Below are positions 98 through 13,021 of a stretch of DNA of 20,405 bases, piece by piece. A program made the translations under genes and the position numbers. Below the pieces are notes generated by a model. The model was given only the letters and a program-made list of their open reading frames with translations, was not told the origin of the DNA and did no database searches. Position 1 is the first letter of the stretch; every line of letters starts with the position of its first letter. Origin of the DNA: a virus; the IMG/VR virus record IMGVR_UViG_3300042691_009564, positions 1 to 20,405 of that record; one strand, written 5' to 3'.

Positions 98-285
98 GAT
101 TGCACTCCCTTTATATCCAGCGTGTATTTATATATTTTCCAAACACTATCATCTTCACCATAACAATACGTGTGATGGACATTCCACGCACCAAGTTCAC
201 GCGTTAACCATCCATCGCCCACGGCTACAGTACGTTTGCAATGCTGACAAATAGCCGCGTATTTATTTCTGGTGGGGCGCTTCAT
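94..285 (-). CDS. Small Cys/His protein, possible zinc-binding, 63 aa
   Basis: This 63-residue protein carries CQHC at about residues 13-16 and then HHTYC at about 37-41, a Cys2...His/Cys arrangement that could hold one zinc ion. I do not recognise a named family. The start ATG (285-283) overlaps the TGA of the DNA polymerase gene as ATGA, and its own TGA overlaps the next ATG in the same way, so the three genes are almost certainly translated together. Zinc-ribbon peptides next to phage polymerases are often nucleic-acid-binding or host-modifying proteins, but nothing here proves that. Confidence 0.7.
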   Translation of the reverse strand: MKRPTRNKYAAICQHCKRTVAVGDGWLTRELGAWNVHHTYCYGEDDSVWKIYKYTLDIKGVQS

Positions 286-2189
286 TTGCGATACCTAACC
301 CCCTCTTTACCTTCCGCGTTGATTGGGCATCCTTCCGCCCACTCAGGAACGCGGGTCATAATCTCAATCATCTCGTCAAGCGTGCCGTGTCCATCCGGTA
401 CTTCACAAATGATTTCGTCATGTACGGATAGGATCACGGGGTATGCCGCCATCTCAAGCGCCATCATGGCCGTTGCCATTAGGTCGCGGGCGGTTGCTTG
501 AACCACGTTCTCAGTGAGCAGACCACCCCATATAATCTGCGATGTCCACTGGCGCGTGACACTATTCAGCGTATCGACTTGCGCGGTGTCGCGCATTGCC
601 CCCCATGGCGTCTCACGCTGAACGATGCGCGGGTTGTGGTATGTCAGCAACCGCCCGCTTGGCAGCGGTAGGCGAACGGTCCCAACACCGCCGTCTTCCC
701 GCACCATTTCTACAAACTCTTCCTCAATGTCGCGCCAGAACTGCGCGATGTGATTGTTCTTCTCCCGGTAAACGGCGACGATGCGCTTGGCTTCGTCCTC
801 ATCCACCACGATACCCATTGTCTTGCACTGCTCGGCGAAGCGTTTGCCGCCCATGCCGTAGCCACAGCCAAGAATTGCCATCTTACCAACTTGCCGTTCG
901 CTGTCGCTGATTGCGTCAACCGATTTGTTGTAGATGGCGGATGCCATATCTTTGTACACGTCTCCCCCTTTTCTGAACGTCTCTACGAGATCGTCCTGTC
1001 GAGCAACCCAAGCCAAGACGCGGGCTTCGATTGCCGAGTAGTCGGCGAACATAAGGCGATGACCTTCTTCCGCCACAAGCATCGAACGCAACAAGTCCGA
1101 TGCGATTACTGTACCAGCGCCGTGAGAACTTACATCCTCTTCTGCGGCCAACTTGGCAATGATCTCGTCCAACTCGGCTTGTTTCTTCTGAGGCCGAGGG
1201 AAGTTCTGCGGTTGCACCAGCTTACCAGACCAACGCCCGGTGGCTGCACCGTGGTAAACAAGAAGGCCGCGCATCCGCCCGTCTTCGTTCGCAGCGTTAA
1301 GCATGGCGTCATACTTAGCTGTGCTGGACTTCGCACCATCTTGGCGCAGACGCAGGACTTCTTTGATGACCGGGTGCAGACGATCAATCTGCAACATCCG
1401 CGCAACAGTTTGTTTGTCAACTGACTTGGCGCGGACGCCATGCGCGTTCAACCACGCGGTCAAGTCCATAGCATTTGTTGCTGCCTTGACTTGGCCTTTG
1501 GTAAGCCGGTGTATCTCCGCGTCAATCTCGACGCTGGCTTTCTCTGCCAACGCCTTAACCTTGTTAACAAGTTCTGTGTCCAGCTTCACGCCGCGATCAT
1601 TGATGCGCTGGTCAAGTTGATACAGGCGGCGTTCGCTATCGGGGAACTCAAGCAGCGCTTCAGCTACCGACAATTCGGTGCGCACGTCCTGCTTACAATA
1701 GTCAATGAGTTGCTGAACCTTGTCCTTGGTATTCCACCAAGTGTAGGTTCCGTCGGCGTTCACCTTACGTGGCCGTGCCATACGGAGCATAAGTGCTGCG
1801 CCGACTTTATCCTTCTGCTCTTCGACACCGAGGACTGCGGCGGCTTGACCAAGCGCACGGGGCAAACCCATCGCGCTGGCTTGCGCCATAGTGCAGCGCC
1901 ATTGTTTGATCGGAGTGCGCGGCCACTGATAGCGAGACACCATAATGGTGTTCCAGATCGTTCTTTCGAAGTTACTATTCCAAGCAGAAAGCAGGCCGCC
2001 CTCTACAATCCAGTTCTCAAGTTGTTCGTCGATGGGATCGCCGGGCGTCCAGACTTGAACGTCGTCGGACCACGGAGCCTTATAGGCCATGCACCAGATG
2101 TCGGTGCTGGGGTCCGCTGCGTATTTGTAAACGCCAGTCTTTCGCAGATCGGCTGCGCTTCGCGTCTCAAAGTCGATGGAAACTACCAT
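282..2189 (-). CDS. DNA polymerase, family A, with 3'-5' exonuclease domain
   Basis: A 635-residue replicative polymerase of the phage PolA type. The N-terminal proofreading domain shows Exo I as IDFET (D6, E8) and an Exo III-like Y164-C-K-Q-D168; the usual Exo II Asp is not obvious, the matching stretch being NSNFE near 71-75. The polymerase domain has the template-binding segment around 318-332 (GRWSGKLVQPQNF), motif A DYSAIEAR at 383-390, the fingers helix RQVGKMAILGCGYG at 432-445 with K436, and motif C VHDE at 589-592. There is no 5' nuclease domain, as is usual for phage enzymes. A GGGAGAG site lies close upstream of the ATG. The gene heads a leftward operon and diverges from the plus-strand replication operon, whose primase-helicase is its likely partner. 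Confidence 0.95.
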   Translation of the reverse strand: MVVSIDFETRSAADLRKTGVYKYAADPSTDIWCMAYKAPWSDDVQVWTPGDPIDEQLENWIVEGGLLSAWNSNFERTIWNTIMVSRYQWPRTPIKQWRCTMAQASAMGLPRALGQAAAVLGVEEQKDKVGAALMLRMARPRKVNADGTYTWWNTKDKVQQLIDYCKQDVRTELSVAEALLEFPDSERRLYQLDQRINDRGVKLDTELVNKVKALAEKASVEIDAEIHRLTKGQVKAATNAMDLTAWLNAHGVRAKSVDKQTVARMLQIDRLHPVIKEVLRLRQDGAKSSTAKYDAMLNAANEDGRMRGLLVYHGAATGRWSGKLVQPQNFPRPQKKQAELDEIIAKLAAEEDVSSHGAGTVIASDLLRSMLVAEEGHRLMFADYSAIEARVLAWVARQDDLVETFRKGGDVYKDMASAIYNKSVDAISDSERQVGKMAILGCGYGMGGKRFAEQCKTMGIVVDEDEAKRIVAVYREKNNHIAQFWRDIEEEFVEMVREDGGVGTVRLPLPSGRLLTYHNPRIVQRETPWGAMRDTAQVDTLNSVTRQWTSQIIWGGLLTENVVQATARDLMATAMMALEMAAYPVILSVHDEIICEVPDGHGTLDEMIEIMTRVPEWAEGCPINAEGKEGVRYRK

Positions 2190-5042: not shown

Positions 5043-5235
5043 AGTAGAGTTAGACTTCATACCAGTATTCGTGATCGGGTTTGATGAAGACTTTGAACGC
5101 GGCGTAATAATGTTAATGCCAGCGCATGAATTGATGGCCGAAGTAGAAGAAGACTTTCAGGTATTCGCCATTGATGCCGCCATTGATATGCTCATGCAGC
5201 GGCGGGATAAGTTGGAGAAGAGGGAGTTGCACTAA
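5017..5235 (+). CDS. Small acidic protein, 72 aa, unknown
   Basis: Two ATGs are possible. The one at 5017 is preferred because GGGGGGAA sits 7 bases upstream of it, while the earlier ATG at 4996 would consume that site as coding. The protein is acidic (DEVELDF, DEDFERG, AEVEEDF) with a short hydrophobic strand (FIPVFVIGF) and a helical C terminus (DAAIDMLMQRRDKLEKREL). No family recognised. It abuts the primase-helicase gene through TAATG. Confidence 0.65.
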   Translation: MKVKMDKDEVELDFIPVFVIGFDEDFERGVIMLMPAHELMAEVEEDFQVFAIDAAIDMLMQRRDKLEKRELH

Positions 5236-7706
5236 TGAAATTCAAGACGCTGTATGAGGCGGGGTTTCAAGACCTAGTGTCTGTGATCCCGCCCAACGCC
5301 GAACTCTCGGCCATGTCTAAAATTCAGGCGGACCAAGCAGGCAAAGCGCCGGGTCGCCAGAATGCACAAGGCACATGGGGCGGCTATGGCTGGCAGGACT
5401 ACACGCCAACGCCAAATGATGTGGAGCGGTGGGACCGCAGCCACGCCAATATCGGCTTGAAGGCAAGCAAGTTCCCTGCGGTTGACATTGATGTTGTTAA
5501 CGAGGGGCTGGCTCGGGTCATTGGGGATATGGCTGCTAAGGCGTTGGGCAAAGCACCAACCCGCATCGGCAGATACCCCAAGCGGCTGCTTATGTATCGT
5601 TCGGATGAGAAGATCGGCAAGATGCAGGTCCGGTTCAAGGACGGCATGGGCGTCGAGCAGCTTGTCGAGTTCCTCGGGGACGGACAACAATACGTCATCG
5701 CTGGTATACATCCCATCACTCGGGAGCCTTACAGTCTTGATGTGGACTTGACGATCAAGGGTCCGTCCGGCCTGAAGCTGGTGACACGCGAGAAGATCGA
5801 GACGTTCTTTGCTGATCTGGCCGAGACGTTGGAGATGATGGGCTGCGAGATTATCCATGCGGATAAATCCGCGCAGAAGGCAGTCGAGCGCCAGTCGGTA
5901 GATCAGACCGGCCTCATCGCGCCAAGCATAAACCAAGTTGTCGCCGCAGTTGGGGTGATCCCCAATACGAGTGAGCATTTCCCTGATCGTGACGACTATA
6001 TCCGTATGGGCTACGCGATCAAGGCAGCGTGCGGCCCGGACAATGAGGCCGAGGCTTTTGAAATCTTCTCGGACTGGGCAAATCGGTGGGAAGATGGGGT
6101 CAATAGTCTCGATACTATTGAGGCAGACTTTGGCCGTATGCACCCGCCCTATGAGTTGGGCTGGGAGTGGATCGCGGACAAGGCCGCCAAGTTCGGCTAC
6201 AAAAAGCAAGTCGATGAGTTCGACGCGATTGATTATGCGGACGATGACTTTGGCTTAGTCGCTACAGCGGGCGAAACACCTGTCGAGTATAGCGACATTG
6301 CCTTGGCGCAGCGCGTTGCTCGGTTACACGTTTCGGATATTCGATATGTTGTCGGTGGCATGGGCTGGGTAGCTTGGGATGGTCACAAGTGGGCCAAGGA
6401 CAAAGCCAACCGGCATCTGTCGCTGGTGCGCAAGGTGTGCGCGCAGGCTTCGGCGGAAGCGTTGTCGAGGATCGATGGGGCCAAGGGTGAGCGGATCGCG
6501 CAGCGCGTTGCATCTTACAATGTGATCGCAAACGTGGCGAAGTTGGCTGCTGTTGAACCGGCAATGCAAGTCACAGTTGAGCAGCTTGACGCGGACATCT
6601 ACCATCTGAACACCAAGTCGGGCATGGTAGACCTGAAGACAGGCGCTCTCTTGCCCCATGATCGCTCACGCATGGCGACCAAATGCACAGCCGTCGAAGT
6701 GGACTTCAGCAAACCAGCACCCCAATGGCAAGCGTTTCTAAATGAGGCTTGCAATGGTGACGCTGAGTTGATCGGCTACCTTCAAAGGCTGGCGGGCTAT
6801 TCGGCTACGGGGTCTACCAAGGAGCACGTCTTGGCCTTTGCTCATGGTTCAGGGGGCAATGGCAAAGGAACCTTCCTCGGAGCCATAGGCAGCGTCCTTG
6901 GCGATTATGCTACTGTAGCGAGTGCGGACGTGTTCTTGGCGTCGAGCAGCCAGCGGCATCCGACAGAGTTGGCGTCACTCATGGGGGCCCGGCTCGTTCA
7001 CGCGCAGGAAATTGACCCGTCGCGCAAGTGGGATGAAGCTAAGGTCAAGTCCTTGACAGGCGGCGACAAGATCAGCGCACGCTTCATGCGGCAGGACTTG
7101 TTTGAGTTCTCGCCCCAGTTCACGCTCATTATCGCTGGCAACACCAAGCCGGAGATTACTAACGTCGATGACGCCATGCGGCGTCGTATGCACCTGATCC
7201 CCTTCGAGACAAAGCCCGCGAAGAAGGATGTCGATCTGCCGGATAAGCTGAAAGAGGAATACCCGGCAATTCTGGCGTGGGTGATCGAGGGCGCAAAGAT
7301 GTGGTTAGAGCGCGGGCTTGACGCGCCCAAAGTGGTTGTCGATGCGACAGAGGAATATCTGGCGGGCGAGGATGCTTTGGCGCGTTGGATCGCAGAGCGG
7401 TGCGTCTATGGCACTGAGCATGAGATGTCCACGAACGATGCGTTCGACGACTTCCGCACATGGTGCAAGGACAACAATGAAGTCAAGGGCAAGGACTGGT
7501 CGCAGCGTAAGTTTGTGGCTGAGATGAAGACCCACGGCTATGAGCATACCAAAGACCGGGCGACACGAACGAAGCGTGTGTTCCGGGGTTTGGAACTGCT
7601 GATCGGAGACGAGGACATCAAGGTCATCAAGTCCATGCTTGACCCGATGGAGGATGACTTCGGCTTTGAGATTATCGTGCGCGATGGGGACGAGGGCATA
7701 GACTGA
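5235..7706 (+). CDS. Bifunctional primase-polymerase / SF3 (D5/P4-type) helicase
   Basis: An 823-residue replication protein. The N-terminal region contains FPAVDIDVV at 80-88, the acidic D-x-D expected of a PrimPol-type catalytic site. About 230-320 resembles the PriCT-2 linker domain (YIRMGYAIKAACG, IFSDWANRWEDG, WEWIADKA). The C-terminal half is a D5/P4-family superfamily 3 helicase: Walker A GSGGNGKGT at 538-546, a Walker B-like RLVHAQEID at 586-594, sensor IIAGNTKPEI at 632-641 with N636, and Arg-finger candidates RRR at 649-651. It would unwind DNA and lay primers at the replication fork for the divergently encoded polymerase. The start within TAATG follows GGAG. It is the largest gene of the rightward early operon. 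Confidence 0.92.
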   Translation: MKFKTLYEAGFQDLVSVIPPNAELSAMSKIQADQAGKAPGRQNAQGTWGGYGWQDYTPTPNDVERWDRSHANIGLKASKFPAVDIDVVNEGLARVIGDMAAKALGKAPTRIGRYPKRLLMYRSDEKIGKMQVRFKDGMGVEQLVEFLGDGQQYVIAGIHPITREPYSLDVDLTIKGPSGLKLVTREKIETFFADLAETLEMMGCEIIHADKSAQKAVERQSVDQTGLIAPSINQVVAAVGVIPNTSEHFPDRDDYIRMGYAIKAACGPDNEAEAFEIFSDWANRWEDGVNSLDTIEADFGRMHPPYELGWEWIADKAAKFGYKKQVDEFDAIDYADDDFGLVATAGETPVEYSDIALAQRVARLHVSDIRYVVGGMGWVAWDGHKWAKDKANRHLSLVRKVCAQASAEALSRIDGAKGERIAQRVASYNVIANVAKLAAVEPAMQVTVEQLDADIYHLNTKSGMVDLKTGALLPHDRSRMATKCTAVEVDFSKPAPQWQAFLNEACNGDAELIGYLQRLAGYSATGSTKEHVLAFAHGSGGNGKGTFLGAIGSVLGDYATVASADVFLASSSQRHPTELASLMGARLVHAQEIDPSRKWDEAKVKSLTGGDKISARFMRQDLFEFSPQFTLIIAGNTKPEITNVDDAMRRRMHLIPFETKPAKKDVDLPDKLKEEYPAILAWVIEGAKMWLERGLDAPKVVVDATEEYLAGEDALARWIAERCVYGTEHEMSTNDAFDDFRTWCKDNNEVKGKDWSQRKFVAEMKTHGYEHTKDRATRTKRVFRGLELLIGDEDIKVIKSMLDPMEDDFGFEIIVRDGDEGID

Positions 7707-8389: not shown

Positions 8390-8932
8390 TCAATCTTGTA
8401 AGAAGTCGTCATCATATGGATCGGGCAAGTCGTCTGCATCTAGGTTATGAGAGCCGACTTGTTTGATCTCGACGATTGGCTCTTCGGTTATGGCTTCCGG
8501 CTCATCCGCTTCTGAGGACGAAGAAGACGCCAAGTTAAGCTGCCTCAGTGCGTCAAGGTGTAGTTGGTTGACGTTGACTTGGACCGCTGTGGTTGGCTTG
8601 CTTTGGAACTTCTCTGGATTGGTTACGCCAGCAAGCCACTTGCGCGTCTCGATTTTGAGGCGATCAGCGTTAGCCGAGACGTGATCGGCAGCGTCCGCAA
8701 TGTCCAAGCATTCATCCGCCCATTGGTCCGCCGCAATGGCTCGGGCTTGGCGGAAGCGGTCTTGCCGTTCCGGGTCTTTCTTTATCCAGTTGTAGAGTGA
8801 TAGGTTGCTGATACCCAATTCACGAGCGAGGCCAGCCATCGTCTTGCCTGCGGCGATCTTTTCGAGAAGTGTTGTCTCGCCGATCTTGTCTAGGTTGCTG
8901 GCAATCACCCGCCGTTTAATATGTCCGGCCAT
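8390..8932 (-). CDS. Terminase small subunit
   Basis: A 180-residue protein with an N-terminal helix-turn-helix at about 18-52 (ETTLLEKIAAGKTMAGLARE, then LGISNLSLYNWIKKDP), a helical oligomerisation segment (RFRQARAIAADQWADECLDI, then RLKIETRKWLAGVTNPEKF at 91-109) and an acidic C-terminal tail with a Ser run. The ADQWADE...KWLAG...NPEKF pattern is typical of phage small terminases, which bind the packaging site and hand DNA to TerL. AAAGGA lies 6-7 bases before the ATG. Unusually it is on the opposite strand to terL and about 2 kb away. It is the last gene of the leftward operon, ending before the inverted-repeat element. Confidence 0.87.
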   Translation of the reverse strand: MAGHIKRRVIASNLDKIGETTLLEKIAAGKTMAGLARELGISNLSLYNWIKKDPERQDRFRQARAIAADQWADECLDIADAADHVSANADRLKIETRKWLAGVTNPEKFQSKPTTAVQVNVNQLHLDALRQLNLASSSSSEADEPEAITEEPIVEIKQVGSHNLDADDLPDPYDDDFLQD

Positions 8933-10161: not shown

Positions 10162-10275
10162 GTATGTCCTTGATTTTTAAGTACCCAGCCAAAAAAATTT
10201 TAGAACTTTCCGCTTGCCAAGTTGTAACTAAACCTTGTAAGAGCGGTGGGTATCAAAAAACGGGAGAAATACGTC

Positions 10276-10962
10276 ATGGCCGTCTATGGTTACACGCGAG
10301 TTTCGACAGAGGATCAGATCGAAAACACCAGCCTCGAAGATCAAGCCCGCCAAATTCAGGGCATTGCCCTTACTCACAACCTTGAACTCGACCACATCTA
10401 CGCAGAACGCGGCGTGTCTGGCGCTGTACCGCTCCTACGAAGAGACGAAGGATGTAAGTTAGCCTTTCTTCGCAAAAACGATACTGTTATCGTTTCGAAG
10501 TTGGACCGTATGTTCCGTGACGCCAGAGATGCACTGAACGTAATCGGCGATTGGGAGGCCGCTGGTATCAATCTTATCATCAACGGCTATGGTAACGTGA
10601 TGGATCGGAGCAATCCCAACGGGCGTTTCATGCTTGAGATTATGGCCGTGTTCAGTGGCGAAGAGCGCCGACGGATTAAGGAGCGCGTCACCGCTGGCAT
10701 CCGAGCCAAGAAGCAGGCCGGTGGATACGTCGGAGGCAAAGTGCCGTTCGGCTACAAGAAGGTAGGCGTAGGCCGGAAGGCCCGGCTTGTCGAAGACCCA
10801 GAACAGCAGGATGTGATCGTCACCGTCAAAGTCGCACGCCAGAAGAACTACAGCACCCGCGACATCGCCAAGATTGTCGCCAAGCGACACGGGATTGAAA
10901 TTAGCCACATGACTGTTAGTCGTATTTTGAAGGGAGAAAACTATGTCGTCCCAGCCAACTAA
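10276..10962 (+). CDS. Serine recombinase (resolvase/invertase family)
   Basis: A 228-residue site-specific recombinase; ATG 10276 is preferred to the in-frame start at 10246 because GGGAGA lies 9 bases upstream and the protein then begins at the usual MAVYGYTRVSTEDQ. The catalytic domain (1-140) shows the nucleophile S10 with R8, KLDRMFRD at 75-82 and the E-helix region SGEERRRIKERVTAGI from 127. The C-terminal part (about 153-222) has VPFGYKK and a helix-turn-helix (STRDIAKIVAKRHGIEISHM) like the start of the large serine recombinase DNA-binding region, but no zinc ribbon or coiled coil. It is thus intermediate between resolvases and large integrases. Its end overlaps the terL start by 20 bases, so the two are co-expressed. 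Confidence 0.9.
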   Translation: MAVYGYTRVSTEDQIENTSLEDQARQIQGIALTHNLELDHIYAERGVSGAVPLLRRDEGCKLAFLRKNDTVIVSKLDRMFRDARDALNVIGDWEAAGINLIINGYGNVMDRSNPNGRFMLEIMAVFSGEERRRIKERVTAGIRAKKQAGGYVGGKVPFGYKKVGVGRKARLVEDPEQQDVIVTVKVARQKNYSTRDIAKIVAKRHGIEISHMTVSRILKGENYVVPAN

Positions 10963-12406
10963 GCGTGAGAAGGAAGCAGCCGACCTTCTCTCCACCACCA
11001 GCCAACAACAGCCCAACTTCTTTCTGCTGTTCTTGAAGAAGTACAAAGATGACCCCGCCGGGTTCGTGCGCGACATTCTCAGAACCAAGCCAGACCCGTG
11101 GCAAGTCAAGTTCCTCGAGGCCATCCGCGACGGCCACCGCCGTATCTCAGTTCGTTCAGGCCACGGTGTAGGGAAATCGACAGCCGCAAGCTGGGCCATG
11201 CTTCACTATTTCTTGACGCGCTACCCGGTGAAGGTGGTTGTCACTGCGCCGACATCAGCACAGTTGTTCGATGCGATGTTCGCAGAACTGAAGCGATGGG
11301 TTAACGAACTACCTGATGTTCTGAAAACCCTGATCGAAGTTAAAGCAGATCGTATCGAACTGAAAGCAGCAGCCAGTGAAGCCTTTATCTCCGCGAGAAC
11401 GTCGCGCGCCGAAACGCCAGAAGCACTCCAAGGTATCCACGCCGATAACGTATTGCTTGTGGCCGACGAAGCCTCGGGTATTCCAGAAAGTGTCTACGAG
11501 GCAGCCTCCGGTTCTATGTCGGGACATAACGCTACGACGCTCCTACTCGGGAACCCAACGCGGAACAGCGGTCTATTTTACGATACCCACAATCGCCTTA
11601 AAGGAGAATGGAAGACATTCCACGTTAGTTGCGTTGACAGCCCGCGTGTCTCAGAGGCTTTCGTTAAGGAAATGCAACTACGGTACGGCGAGGACAGTCC
11701 GGCGTATCATGTACGCGTTCTCGGGAACTTTCCGCCCCGCGAAGAAGATACCGTCATTCCCGTCGAGTTGATCGACAGCGCCATGAACCGCGAGATCAAG
11801 ATCGCCAAGGGAACGAAGTGCGTCTGGGGTCTGGACGTGGCCCGTATGGGTTCGGATGCTAGTGCGCTCGCCAAACGCAAGGGGCCGGTTGTCGAAGAGA
11901 TACAGACTTGGAAAGGTCTGGACTTGATGCAGTTGACCGGGGCCGTGGTTGCCGAGTTTGAGGCGCTGCCGCCTTCGGAACAACCTGTCGAGATATTAGT
12001 TGATAGTATCGGGCTGGGGGCGGGCGTGTTGGACCGTCTGCGCGAATTGGGCTTACCGGCTCGTGGGATCAACGTCGCGGAAAGCCCGGCGCTCAAAGGA
12101 ACCTACGCCAACCTGAGGGCCGAACTCTGGTTCAAGTGCAAGGCGTGGCTGGCGAACCGCGACGTTAAAATCCCGAAGGATGAACAGTTGTTTGCCGAAT
12201 TGGCATCGCCTCGTTACTCTTTTACGTCATCGGGCAAGATGCAAGTGGAGAGCAAGGAAAGCATGAAGAAACGTGGCCTTCCTTCGCCGGACAAAGCGGA
12301 TGCGCTTTGCCTCTGCTTGGCGACGGACCTGTCAACTATAATGCACGGCTATTCTATGGCGAATAAGTCCGGTCCATTGCGCCGAAATATACGCGGAGTT
12401 GTTTGA
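10943..12406 (+). CDS. Terminase large subunit (packaging ATPase/nuclease)
   Basis: A 487-residue motor protein. The ATPase domain has Walker A SGHGVGKST at 72-80, Walker B LLVADEAS at 171-178 with catalytic E176, and the coupling motif LLLGNPTR at 200-207. The nuclease domain has the three acidic positions of the RNase H-like fold: D298 in WGLDVARMGSD, D354 in ILVDSIGLGAG, and D450/D453 in SPDKADAL. It would dock on the portal, pump DNA into proheads and cut the concatemer. The ATG at 10943 lies inside the recombinase gene after AAGGGAG, showing coupling. The small subunit is encoded on the other strand. The stop codon is part of the -35 of the following promoter. Confidence 0.95.
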   Translation: MSSQPTKREKEAADLLSTTSQQQPNFFLLFLKKYKDDPAGFVRDILRTKPDPWQVKFLEAIRDGHRRISVRSGHGVGKSTAASWAMLHYFLTRYPVKVVVTAPTSAQLFDAMFAELKRWVNELPDVLKTLIEVKADRIELKAAASEAFISARTSRAETPEALQGIHADNVLLVADEASGIPESVYEAASGSMSGHNATTLLLGNPTRNSGLFYDTHNRLKGEWKTFHVSCVDSPRVSEAFVKEMQLRYGEDSPAYHVRVLGNFPPREEDTVIPVELIDSAMNREIKIAKGTKCVWGLDVARMGSDASALAKRKGPVVEEIQTWKGLDLMQLTGAVVAEFEALPPSEQPVEILVDSIGLGAGVLDRLRELGLPARGINVAESPALKGTYANLRAELWFKCKAWLANRDVKIPKDEQLFAELASPRYSFTSSGKMQVESKESMKKRGLPSPDKADALCLCLATDLSTIMHGYSMANKSGPLRRNIRGVV

Positions 12407-12429
12407 CAAATATCATATAAAAATATAAT
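12403..12429 (+). promoter_or_regulatory. Consensus promoter at the end of terL
   Basis: TTGACA (12403-12408) and TATAAT (12424-12429) are both perfect sigma-70 hexamers, separated by 15 bases, which is shorter than the usual 16-18. The -35 overlaps the terL stop codon. The predicted start is about 12436, the first base of a GC-rich hairpin, suggesting it drives a structured RNA. Confidence 0.5.
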
Positions 12430-12435
12430 TATTAG

Positions 12436-12549
12436 TTGACCGGTGGGTTCTCCTCTCCCTCCCTGCCGGTCAACCCAACTGGGTGGCGAGGTTAAACCGG
12501 TAATAGCGTCTTGGCGCAACTGTCAGGAGTGCCGCTGCCCAACTTTTTT
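12436..12549 (+). ncRNA. Candidate structured small RNA between terL and the HNH gene
   Basis: Immediately downstream of a consensus promoter, GTTGACCGG (12435-12443) pairs perfectly with CCGGTCAAC (12466-12474) around a pyrimidine-rich loop containing CTCCTCTCC, which is complementary to Shine-Dalgarno sequences. Further on, TGGGTGGCG (12480-12488) pairs with CGCTGCCCA (12533-12541) with two G-U pairs, enclosing a smaller GGCGC/GTGCC stem, and six T residues follow at 12544-12549 as in an intrinsic terminator. No reading frame of note lies here. The combination of promoter, two main stems and T-run predicts an RNA of about 110 bases. It could instead be a leader of the downstream genes. Confidence 0.38.
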
Positions 12550-12576
12550 GCATTATACGAAAGATTAGGGTATAGT
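12548..12576 (+). promoter_or_regulatory. Promoter for the HNH and structural operon
   Basis: TTGCAT (12548-12553), a 17-base spacer and TATAGT (12571-12576) make a good sigma-70-type promoter 23 bases before the HNH start codon. Its -35 shares bases with the T-run that ends the candidate small RNA. The leader would be only about 15-20 bases. Confidence 0.5.
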
Positions 12577-12603
12577 TATCCACAGATGAGGGTTCTCTGT
12601 GGA
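12576..12603 (+). promoter_or_regulatory. DnaA-box match and start-codon hairpin
   Basis: TTATCCACA (12576-12584) matches the consensus high-affinity DnaA box exactly and directly abuts the -10. It overlaps a perfect 8-bp inverted repeat TCCACAGA (12579-12586) / TCTGTGGA (12596-12603). In the RNA the GTG start codon is in the stem and the GAGGG ribosome site is in the 9-base loop. Depending on the exact transcription start, the stem may be incomplete. Confidence 0.4.
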
Positions 12604-13021
12604 AACAAAAACGTGTCGCCAATGCGGCGAGACTAAAGCCATAGATAAGTTTTACCGTGGTCGCGGTAAATGCAAGGCGTGTCAGTTAGACATACAGCGC
12701 GCCTATCGTTCTCGCACGCCGGGGTTCCACCGCAAACATAACTTGCGCCAACGCTACGGCCTGAGTTACGACGACTTCCAATCTATCCTCCACGCGCAAA
12801 ATTACTCTTGCGCTATTTGTGAGGTGGAAATCTCTCATGGATTAGAGTATAGAACAAACAGATCAGTGGCCGTGGACCATAACCATGACACGGGTGAAGT
12901 GCGCGGCATACTTTGTTCGAAGTGCAATTTGATGTTGGGCCACGCCCGCGAGAGTACCGAAATTCTTTATAAGAGCATTGTGTACTTGAGCGAACGTGGA
13001 ACTTACGAACCGAAGAAGTGA
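12599..13021 (+). CDS. Endonuclease VII-like HNH nuclease
   Basis: A 140-residue nuclease of the recombination endonuclease VII type. The N terminus has a zinc knuckle-like C6-x2-C9...C25-x2-C28 with the KxFYRGRGKCKAC pattern. The catalytic part has RYGLSYDDFQSILHAQNYSC, the CAIC pair (C71, C74), VDHNHDTGEVRG (93-97 as D-H-N-H-D) and CSKCNLMLG (C106, C109). Such enzymes cut branched DNA or serve as packaging or mobile HNH nucleases; a position just after terL favours resolving branches before packaging. The start is GTG at 12599, preceded by GAGGG, inside a hairpin. Confidence 0.88.
   Translation: METKTCRQCGETKAIDKFYRGRGKCKACQLDIQRAYRSRTPGFHRKHNLRQRYGLSYDDFQSILHAQNYSCAICEVEISHGLEYRTNRSVAVDHNHDTGEVRGILCSKCNLMLGHARESTEILYKSIVYLSERGTYEPKK

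Follow-up and report, generated by a model that had tools for sequence, protein, structure and literature searches.

The interval 12403-12549 of the window, a virus record of 20,405 bases, is on comparative evidence a real and conserved RNA gene located between terL and an endonuclease VII-like gene, a conclusion drawn from its position, promoter, fold, terminator and covariation. With a probability of roughly 0.5, we further propose that its product is a free-standing phage sRNA of the anti-Shine-Dalgarno type, which would mask the mRNAs of DNA-metabolism genes and of TerL while sparing those of the virion genes. Such an RNA probably helps to switch infection from DNA copying to particle building. 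Only a few of the conserved free-standing phage sRNAs form a clear structural family for which a class of targets is predicted. Searches of Rfam 15 yielded no match in the window, none at E<=10 in 12380-12620 and none in 13 relatives, and the literature on terL-linked phage sRNAs offered nothing specific.

Promoter, fold and terminator of the element

All parts of the element lie on the plus strand. It begins with a sigma70-type promoter (12403-12429), in which the -35 sequence TTGACA (12403-12408) overlaps the terL stop codon TGA (12404-12406) and is separated by a 15-base spacer from the -10 sequence TATAAT (12424-12429). This pair of hexamers occurs a single time in the window and is absent from 100 dinucleotide shuffles. 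A first-pass annotation, made from the single sequence, had correctly recognized this promoter, but it also considered the 15-base spacer a weak point. Comparison settles that concern, as the close relatives carry TTGAC over the terL stop and a -10 element, the promoter mostly having the form TTGACA-N16-TATATT, with a TGn preceding the -10. Transcription is predicted to start at about 12436, among the first bases of the P1 hairpin, which was likewise noticed at the predicted start, albeit as a stem of 9 bp; it is longer, comprising 13 bp (12435-12447 with 12462-12474, thus spanning 12435-12474). P1 encloses an all-pyrimidine loop (12448-12461; UUCUCCUCUCCCUC, which in the letters of the window reads TTCTCCTCTCCCTC), and this loop is the predicted anti-Shine-Dalgarno pairing site.

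Located 3' of P1 is a second domain (12480-12541), which is arranged as a three-way junction. P2 contributes 9 pairs (12480-12488 with 12533-12541), two of which are G-U, and it encloses P3 (about 12490-12493 with 12495-12498), the conserved GGUAAUA (12499-12505) between P3 and P4, and P4 itself (12506-12508 with 12530-12532), whose apical hairpin is variable. P2 and the T6 run at 12544-12549, both of which had been identified in the first pass, together constitute a predicted intrinsic terminator. The G-U pairs had been listed as another weakness, which is again removed by comparison, as the relatives have mostly Watson-Crick pairs at these positions of the window. Folding of 12436-12549 yields -44.2 kcal/mol (z = -2.66), a value as low being reached by 1 of 200 dinucleotide shuffles. 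The signals are packed into a very tight chain: just as the -35 sequence of the element overlaps the terL stop, its T-run extends into the -35 of the promoter that follows (12544-12552).

Conservation and covariation

Scanning viral contigs with TerL identified 80 loci, the 70 closest of which (L002-L071) constitute the close relatives. All 70 encode, directly 3' of terL, a promoter over the terL stop, a P1 with a pyrimidine loop and the second domain, which supports the original suggestion that this is a compact RNA gene and not spacer DNA. The T-run is present in every full-length close relative and UAAUAGCG is invariant within the P2/P3/P4 domain. A covariance model matches all 70 loci immediately 3' of terL with 81-140 bits, although these matches indicate presence and not independent discovery, since 37 of the same loci went into the model.

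In the 37 distinct sequences, 97.3% of the pair cells of the P1-P4 structure are standard pairs, compared with 34-62% for control versions in which the structure was slid. Compensatory changes in the stems had been named in advance as the test of the RNA gene, and they are indeed found: 11 of the 27 pairs are changed on both sides with pairing kept, a result reached by none of 500 shuffles. P1 alone accounts for both-side changes in 7 of its 11 pairs, with 99.8% of its cells paired. Length variation in P4 is likewise what would be expected of an RNA helix, as its apical part is missing in L012, L013 and L039, leaving GCGAAACGC, whereas others have a long apical hairpin. Most sequences contain stop codons in every frame and no conserved ORF was found within the element, which therefore does not represent a conserved coding region.

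Complementarity of the loop to ribosome-binding sites

The DNA polymerase A gene (282-2189, minus strand) has the ribosome-binding site (RBS) GAGGGAGAG, which is complementary to the loop core CUCUCCCUC over 9 nt without a mismatch and has a predicted duplex energy of -18.6 kcal/mol. In silico, the loop also pairs with the RBS AGAAGAGGGAG of the primase-helicase gene (5235-7706, plus strand; -14.7 kcal/mol), with the leader of the 2336 gene and with the RBS GAAGGGAG of terL, the terminase large subunit gene (10943-12406, plus strand). The DNA polymerase RBS was considered as the sole co-evolving partner of the loop and rejected, since relatives carry GAGGGAAAG or GTGGAGAG instead; the perfect 9-nt match is thus special to the window.

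For a broader view, duplex energies were calculated in 20 related records between the start regions of orthologous genes and each phage's own loop. PHROG categories were used to sort the orthologs into 9 DNA-metabolism and 9 virion/lysis groups, a division settled only once the energies had been inspected, and the means were -10.0 and -5.5 kcal/mol, respectively (exact label permutation over the 18 groups, p=3.7e-4; the gene starts come from a simple script, and the genomes, being related, do not count as independent). Other start-region windows give the contrast as well, and it is also seen in the 5 tier-1 genomes and when only the divergent genomes are considered (p=8e-5). It is not simply a matter of stronger Shine-Dalgarno (SD) sequences, because the distance between the two classes is far smaller with the 16S anti-SD, at 1.9 kcal/mol, than with the own loop, at 4.6. 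For example, the scaffold gene has a strong canonical SD and yet does not match the loop. A class difference of 3.5 +/- 0.3 kcal/mol is already obtained with loops shuffled at constant composition, although 0 of 150 of these reach 4.6. Since shuffled pyrimidine loops thus attain most of the contrast, it reflects mainly the purine-rich leaders on DNA-metabolism genes, and the part specific to the order of bases amounts to only about 1 kcal/mol. The fit between each genome's own loop and its RBSs is also better than under permutation of the loop assignments (p=0.004 at the genome level; rank 2 of 24 over four loop types), a finding that carries less weight given the relatedness of the genomes. 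Averaged over all genes, with no classes, there is no clear preference for the own loop. Exceptions exist in both classes: the gene for the ssDNA-binding protein (G001_35) belongs to DNA metabolism and has no good loop match, and the virion gene G001_3 matches the loop fairly well.

A proposed anti-Shine-Dalgarno mechanism

Based upon these features, several steps can be proposed. An RNA of about 114 nt would be transcribed from its own sigma70-type promoter to the intrinsic terminator, and P1 would present its anti-SD-like pyrimidine loop for pairing in trans with purine-rich RBSs. The predicted targets are the DNA polymerase, the primase-helicase, an exonuclease, a nucleotide-kinase-like gene, a D5-like regulator and TerL, on whose mRNAs pairing would block ribosome binding. 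Structural genes, which have another type of SD (AAGGTG, GAGGT), should stay translatable. The presumed outcome is a reduced synthesis of DNA-metabolism proteins while the virion genes are being expressed, the timing being our inference. The earlier suggestion of a regulator of late translation would accordingly be right in part only: regulation of translation fits, but the loop matches the RBSs of DNA-metabolism genes and TerL, and it is the virion genes that look spared. As for the junction and terminator domain, our guess is that it probably confers stability or serves as a protein-binding platform. Should this prediction prove correct, a widespread aquatic phage group would time its lytic program by masking one flavor of SD with a single sRNA, and the means by which it turns down replication genes while virions are produced becomes directly testable.

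A bolder version, which we advance only tentatively and consider somewhat doubtful, is a module-wide switch in which the DNA-metabolism genes share a GGGAG-type SD read by one sRNA loop, the virion SDs escape and the loop evolves together with the leaders throughout the clade. This would be the RNA counterpart of T4 RegB, an endoribonuclease that cuts GGAG-type SDs in early phage mRNAs and does not act upon the late ones (PMC3014915). The likeness is limited to the predicted outcome, as RegB is a protein nuclease that cuts and the phage RNA would mask, and there is no homology between them. Phage antisense RNAs that block translation by pairing with an mRNA are also known, such as sar of P22 and c4 of P1/P7, the latter acting from RNA loops around the RBS (PMC12197685). 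However, sar and c4 each address one antirepressor mRNA in lysogeny control, whereas a generic class of RBS across a whole module is predicted here.

Divergent relatives and distribution

Beyond the close relatives, we examined a divergent set (L073 and L300-L325; TerL about 88-97% identical within the set), leaving out the downstream sequence of L072, which is a low-complexity contig end. These relatives keep the promoter position, with a -35-like TTGTGT over the terL stop, as well as a pyrimidine-loop hairpin and a terminator, but not the three-way junction. Their loops are all or nearly all pyrimidine, as in UCUCCUCUCCUC, UUUUCCUCCUCUCCUUC, UCUCCUUUC and UUUUCCUCUU. Among representative post-terL gaps, such a hairpin was found in 20 of 21, compared with 0-3 of 150 random stretches per locus, and the stem sequences are unrelated from gap to gap. 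One of these gaps belongs to L399, whose TerL shares only 52% identity with the Manatee Spring query that found it. Weak, but significant covariance-model matches occur at the right place in L073 (25 bits, E=5e-4), L303 (E=6e-4) and L311 (E=2e-3). The RNA appears to be modular, with the 3' domain swapped and the pyrimidine hairpin retained. In L300-L325 and L399, a long GC-rich terminator (GGGGGUCGGC..GCCGGCCCCC) takes the place of the junction domain next to the retained hairpin.

Judged from annotation, phiM5, the Manatee Spring phages and C72C1, with 47-61% identical TerL, have no comparable post-terL RNA region, and the element is absent from the alphaproteobacterial TerL relatives (45-65%). 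Of 337 alphaproteobacterial genomes, 5 contained a distant relative of TerL, compared with 0 of 321 from a second proteobacterial class. Among named phages whose host is known, the closest one infects Sinorhizobium. Copies on host chromosomes were considered and dismissed: a pattern scan of genome contigs returned at least 120 stretches, and none of the 80 loci run against the covariance model reached 15 bits, these having the look of chance matches.

Host targets and protein binding as alternatives

The tip of the TerL distribution towards Alphaproteobacteria fits the closest functional parallel, which is found in the anti-SD sRNAs of rhizobia. NfeR1 and its relatives have ultraconserved CCUCCUCCC loops, divergent stems and a silencing mechanism based upon RBS occlusion (PMC10746234, PMC3927594), an anatomy identical to that of P1. 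It is accordingly conceivable, if unlikely, that the RNA acts in trans mainly against host mRNAs as a functional copy of the NfeR1/AbcR-type sRNAs, with the complementarity to phage RBSs as a by-product, and the distribution of TerL relatives and the Sinorhizobium phage are in keeping with this. However, the loop core CUCUCCCUC differs from CCUCCUCCC and, compared with shuffled loops, is the better fit to the GGGAG-type leaders of the phage itself. Like alpha-r14/NfeR1 and AbcR1/2 of the rhizobia, the element is an independent sRNA gene with a pyrimidine anti-SD loop, freely diverging stems and predicted RBS occlusion. Unlike alpha-r14/NfeR1, it is encoded by a phage, tied to terL, directed by prediction at phage DNA-metabolism genes and equipped with the extra junction domain. 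The alpha-r14/NfeR1 family is defined by three hairpins, each with a CCUCCUCCC loop, while the element has one pyrimidine hairpin with a different core. It is not a member of the NfeR1 or RegB systems, and no Rfam family covers it.

The same loop could instead function as a decoy or platform for a protein such as the termination factor Rho, ribosomal protein S1 or Hfq, and not as an antisense site. Rho recognizes YC dinucleotides, and the loop is YC-rich, long (8-18 nt), variable in length and drifting in sequence, yet it stays pyrimidine. We consider this quite unlikely, as it predicts neither the contrast between DNA-metabolism and virion leaders nor the order effect in the loops.

The downstream gene and possible cis-acting or packaging roles

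The neighboring gene (12599-13021, plus strand; GTG start) had been labeled an HNH gene, but it matches Pfam Endonuclease_7 (PF02945, E=4e-21) and so belongs to the endonuclease VII family and not to the homing-type HNH group. The second promoter reported directly behind the element does correspond to a promoter-like site (12547-12576, plus strand; TTTGCA-N18-TATAGT), which would serve this gene and has similar sequence in most relatives. The element might act in cis, terminating the terL operon and supplying the endonuclease VII gene with leader signals, while its own promoter stays idle. P2 with T6 is a terminator and the second promoter-like site lies directly behind it, but a plain terminator needs no conserved 5' promoter, no covarying P1 with a pyrimidine loop and no invariant UAAUAGCG, which renders this explanation very unlikely. 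A role with TerL in packaging, as for the phi29 pRNA, a small phage RNA of the packaging machinery, is more improbable still: the constant location directly 3' of terL in close relatives and the three-way junction do give the likeness of a small phage RNA beside a packaging gene, but the junction is missing in divergent relatives with TerL about 88-92% identical, no comparable RNA region was seen in phages with 47-61% identical TerL, and, by inspection, no complementary conserved loop is available for intermolecular pairing such as the ring-forming loop pair of pRNA, the only long conserved loop being all-pyrimidine.

Returning to the anti-SD sRNA, a possible additional target is the leader of the endonuclease VII-like gene, whose RBS sits inside a CCACAG..CTGTGG hairpin and might engage the sRNA loop in a kissing interaction (CUCCC with GGGAG). 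This leader fold (12580-12602; CCAC.GGGAGCG..CCCGTGG in relatives) encloses both the SD and the GTG start.

Several minor observations concern the surroundings. At 12576-12584, after the second promoter and before the endonuclease VII gene, lies TTATCCACA, which we take to be a perfect match to the DnaA-box consensus; it is shared by many relatives (such as L004, L030 and L064), others being different. In G007 (C1:30901-33660; L492:11901-14660), the ORF for the DNA polymerase exceeds those of relatives by about 280 codons and has an in-frame insert near query residues 434-442, for which an intein was suspected and then discarded, as Pfam finds no intein domain. A serine recombinase-like gene (10246-10962, plus strand) lies directly upstream of terL, and the small terminase subunit is encoded away from terL on the opposite strand (8390-8932, minus strand).
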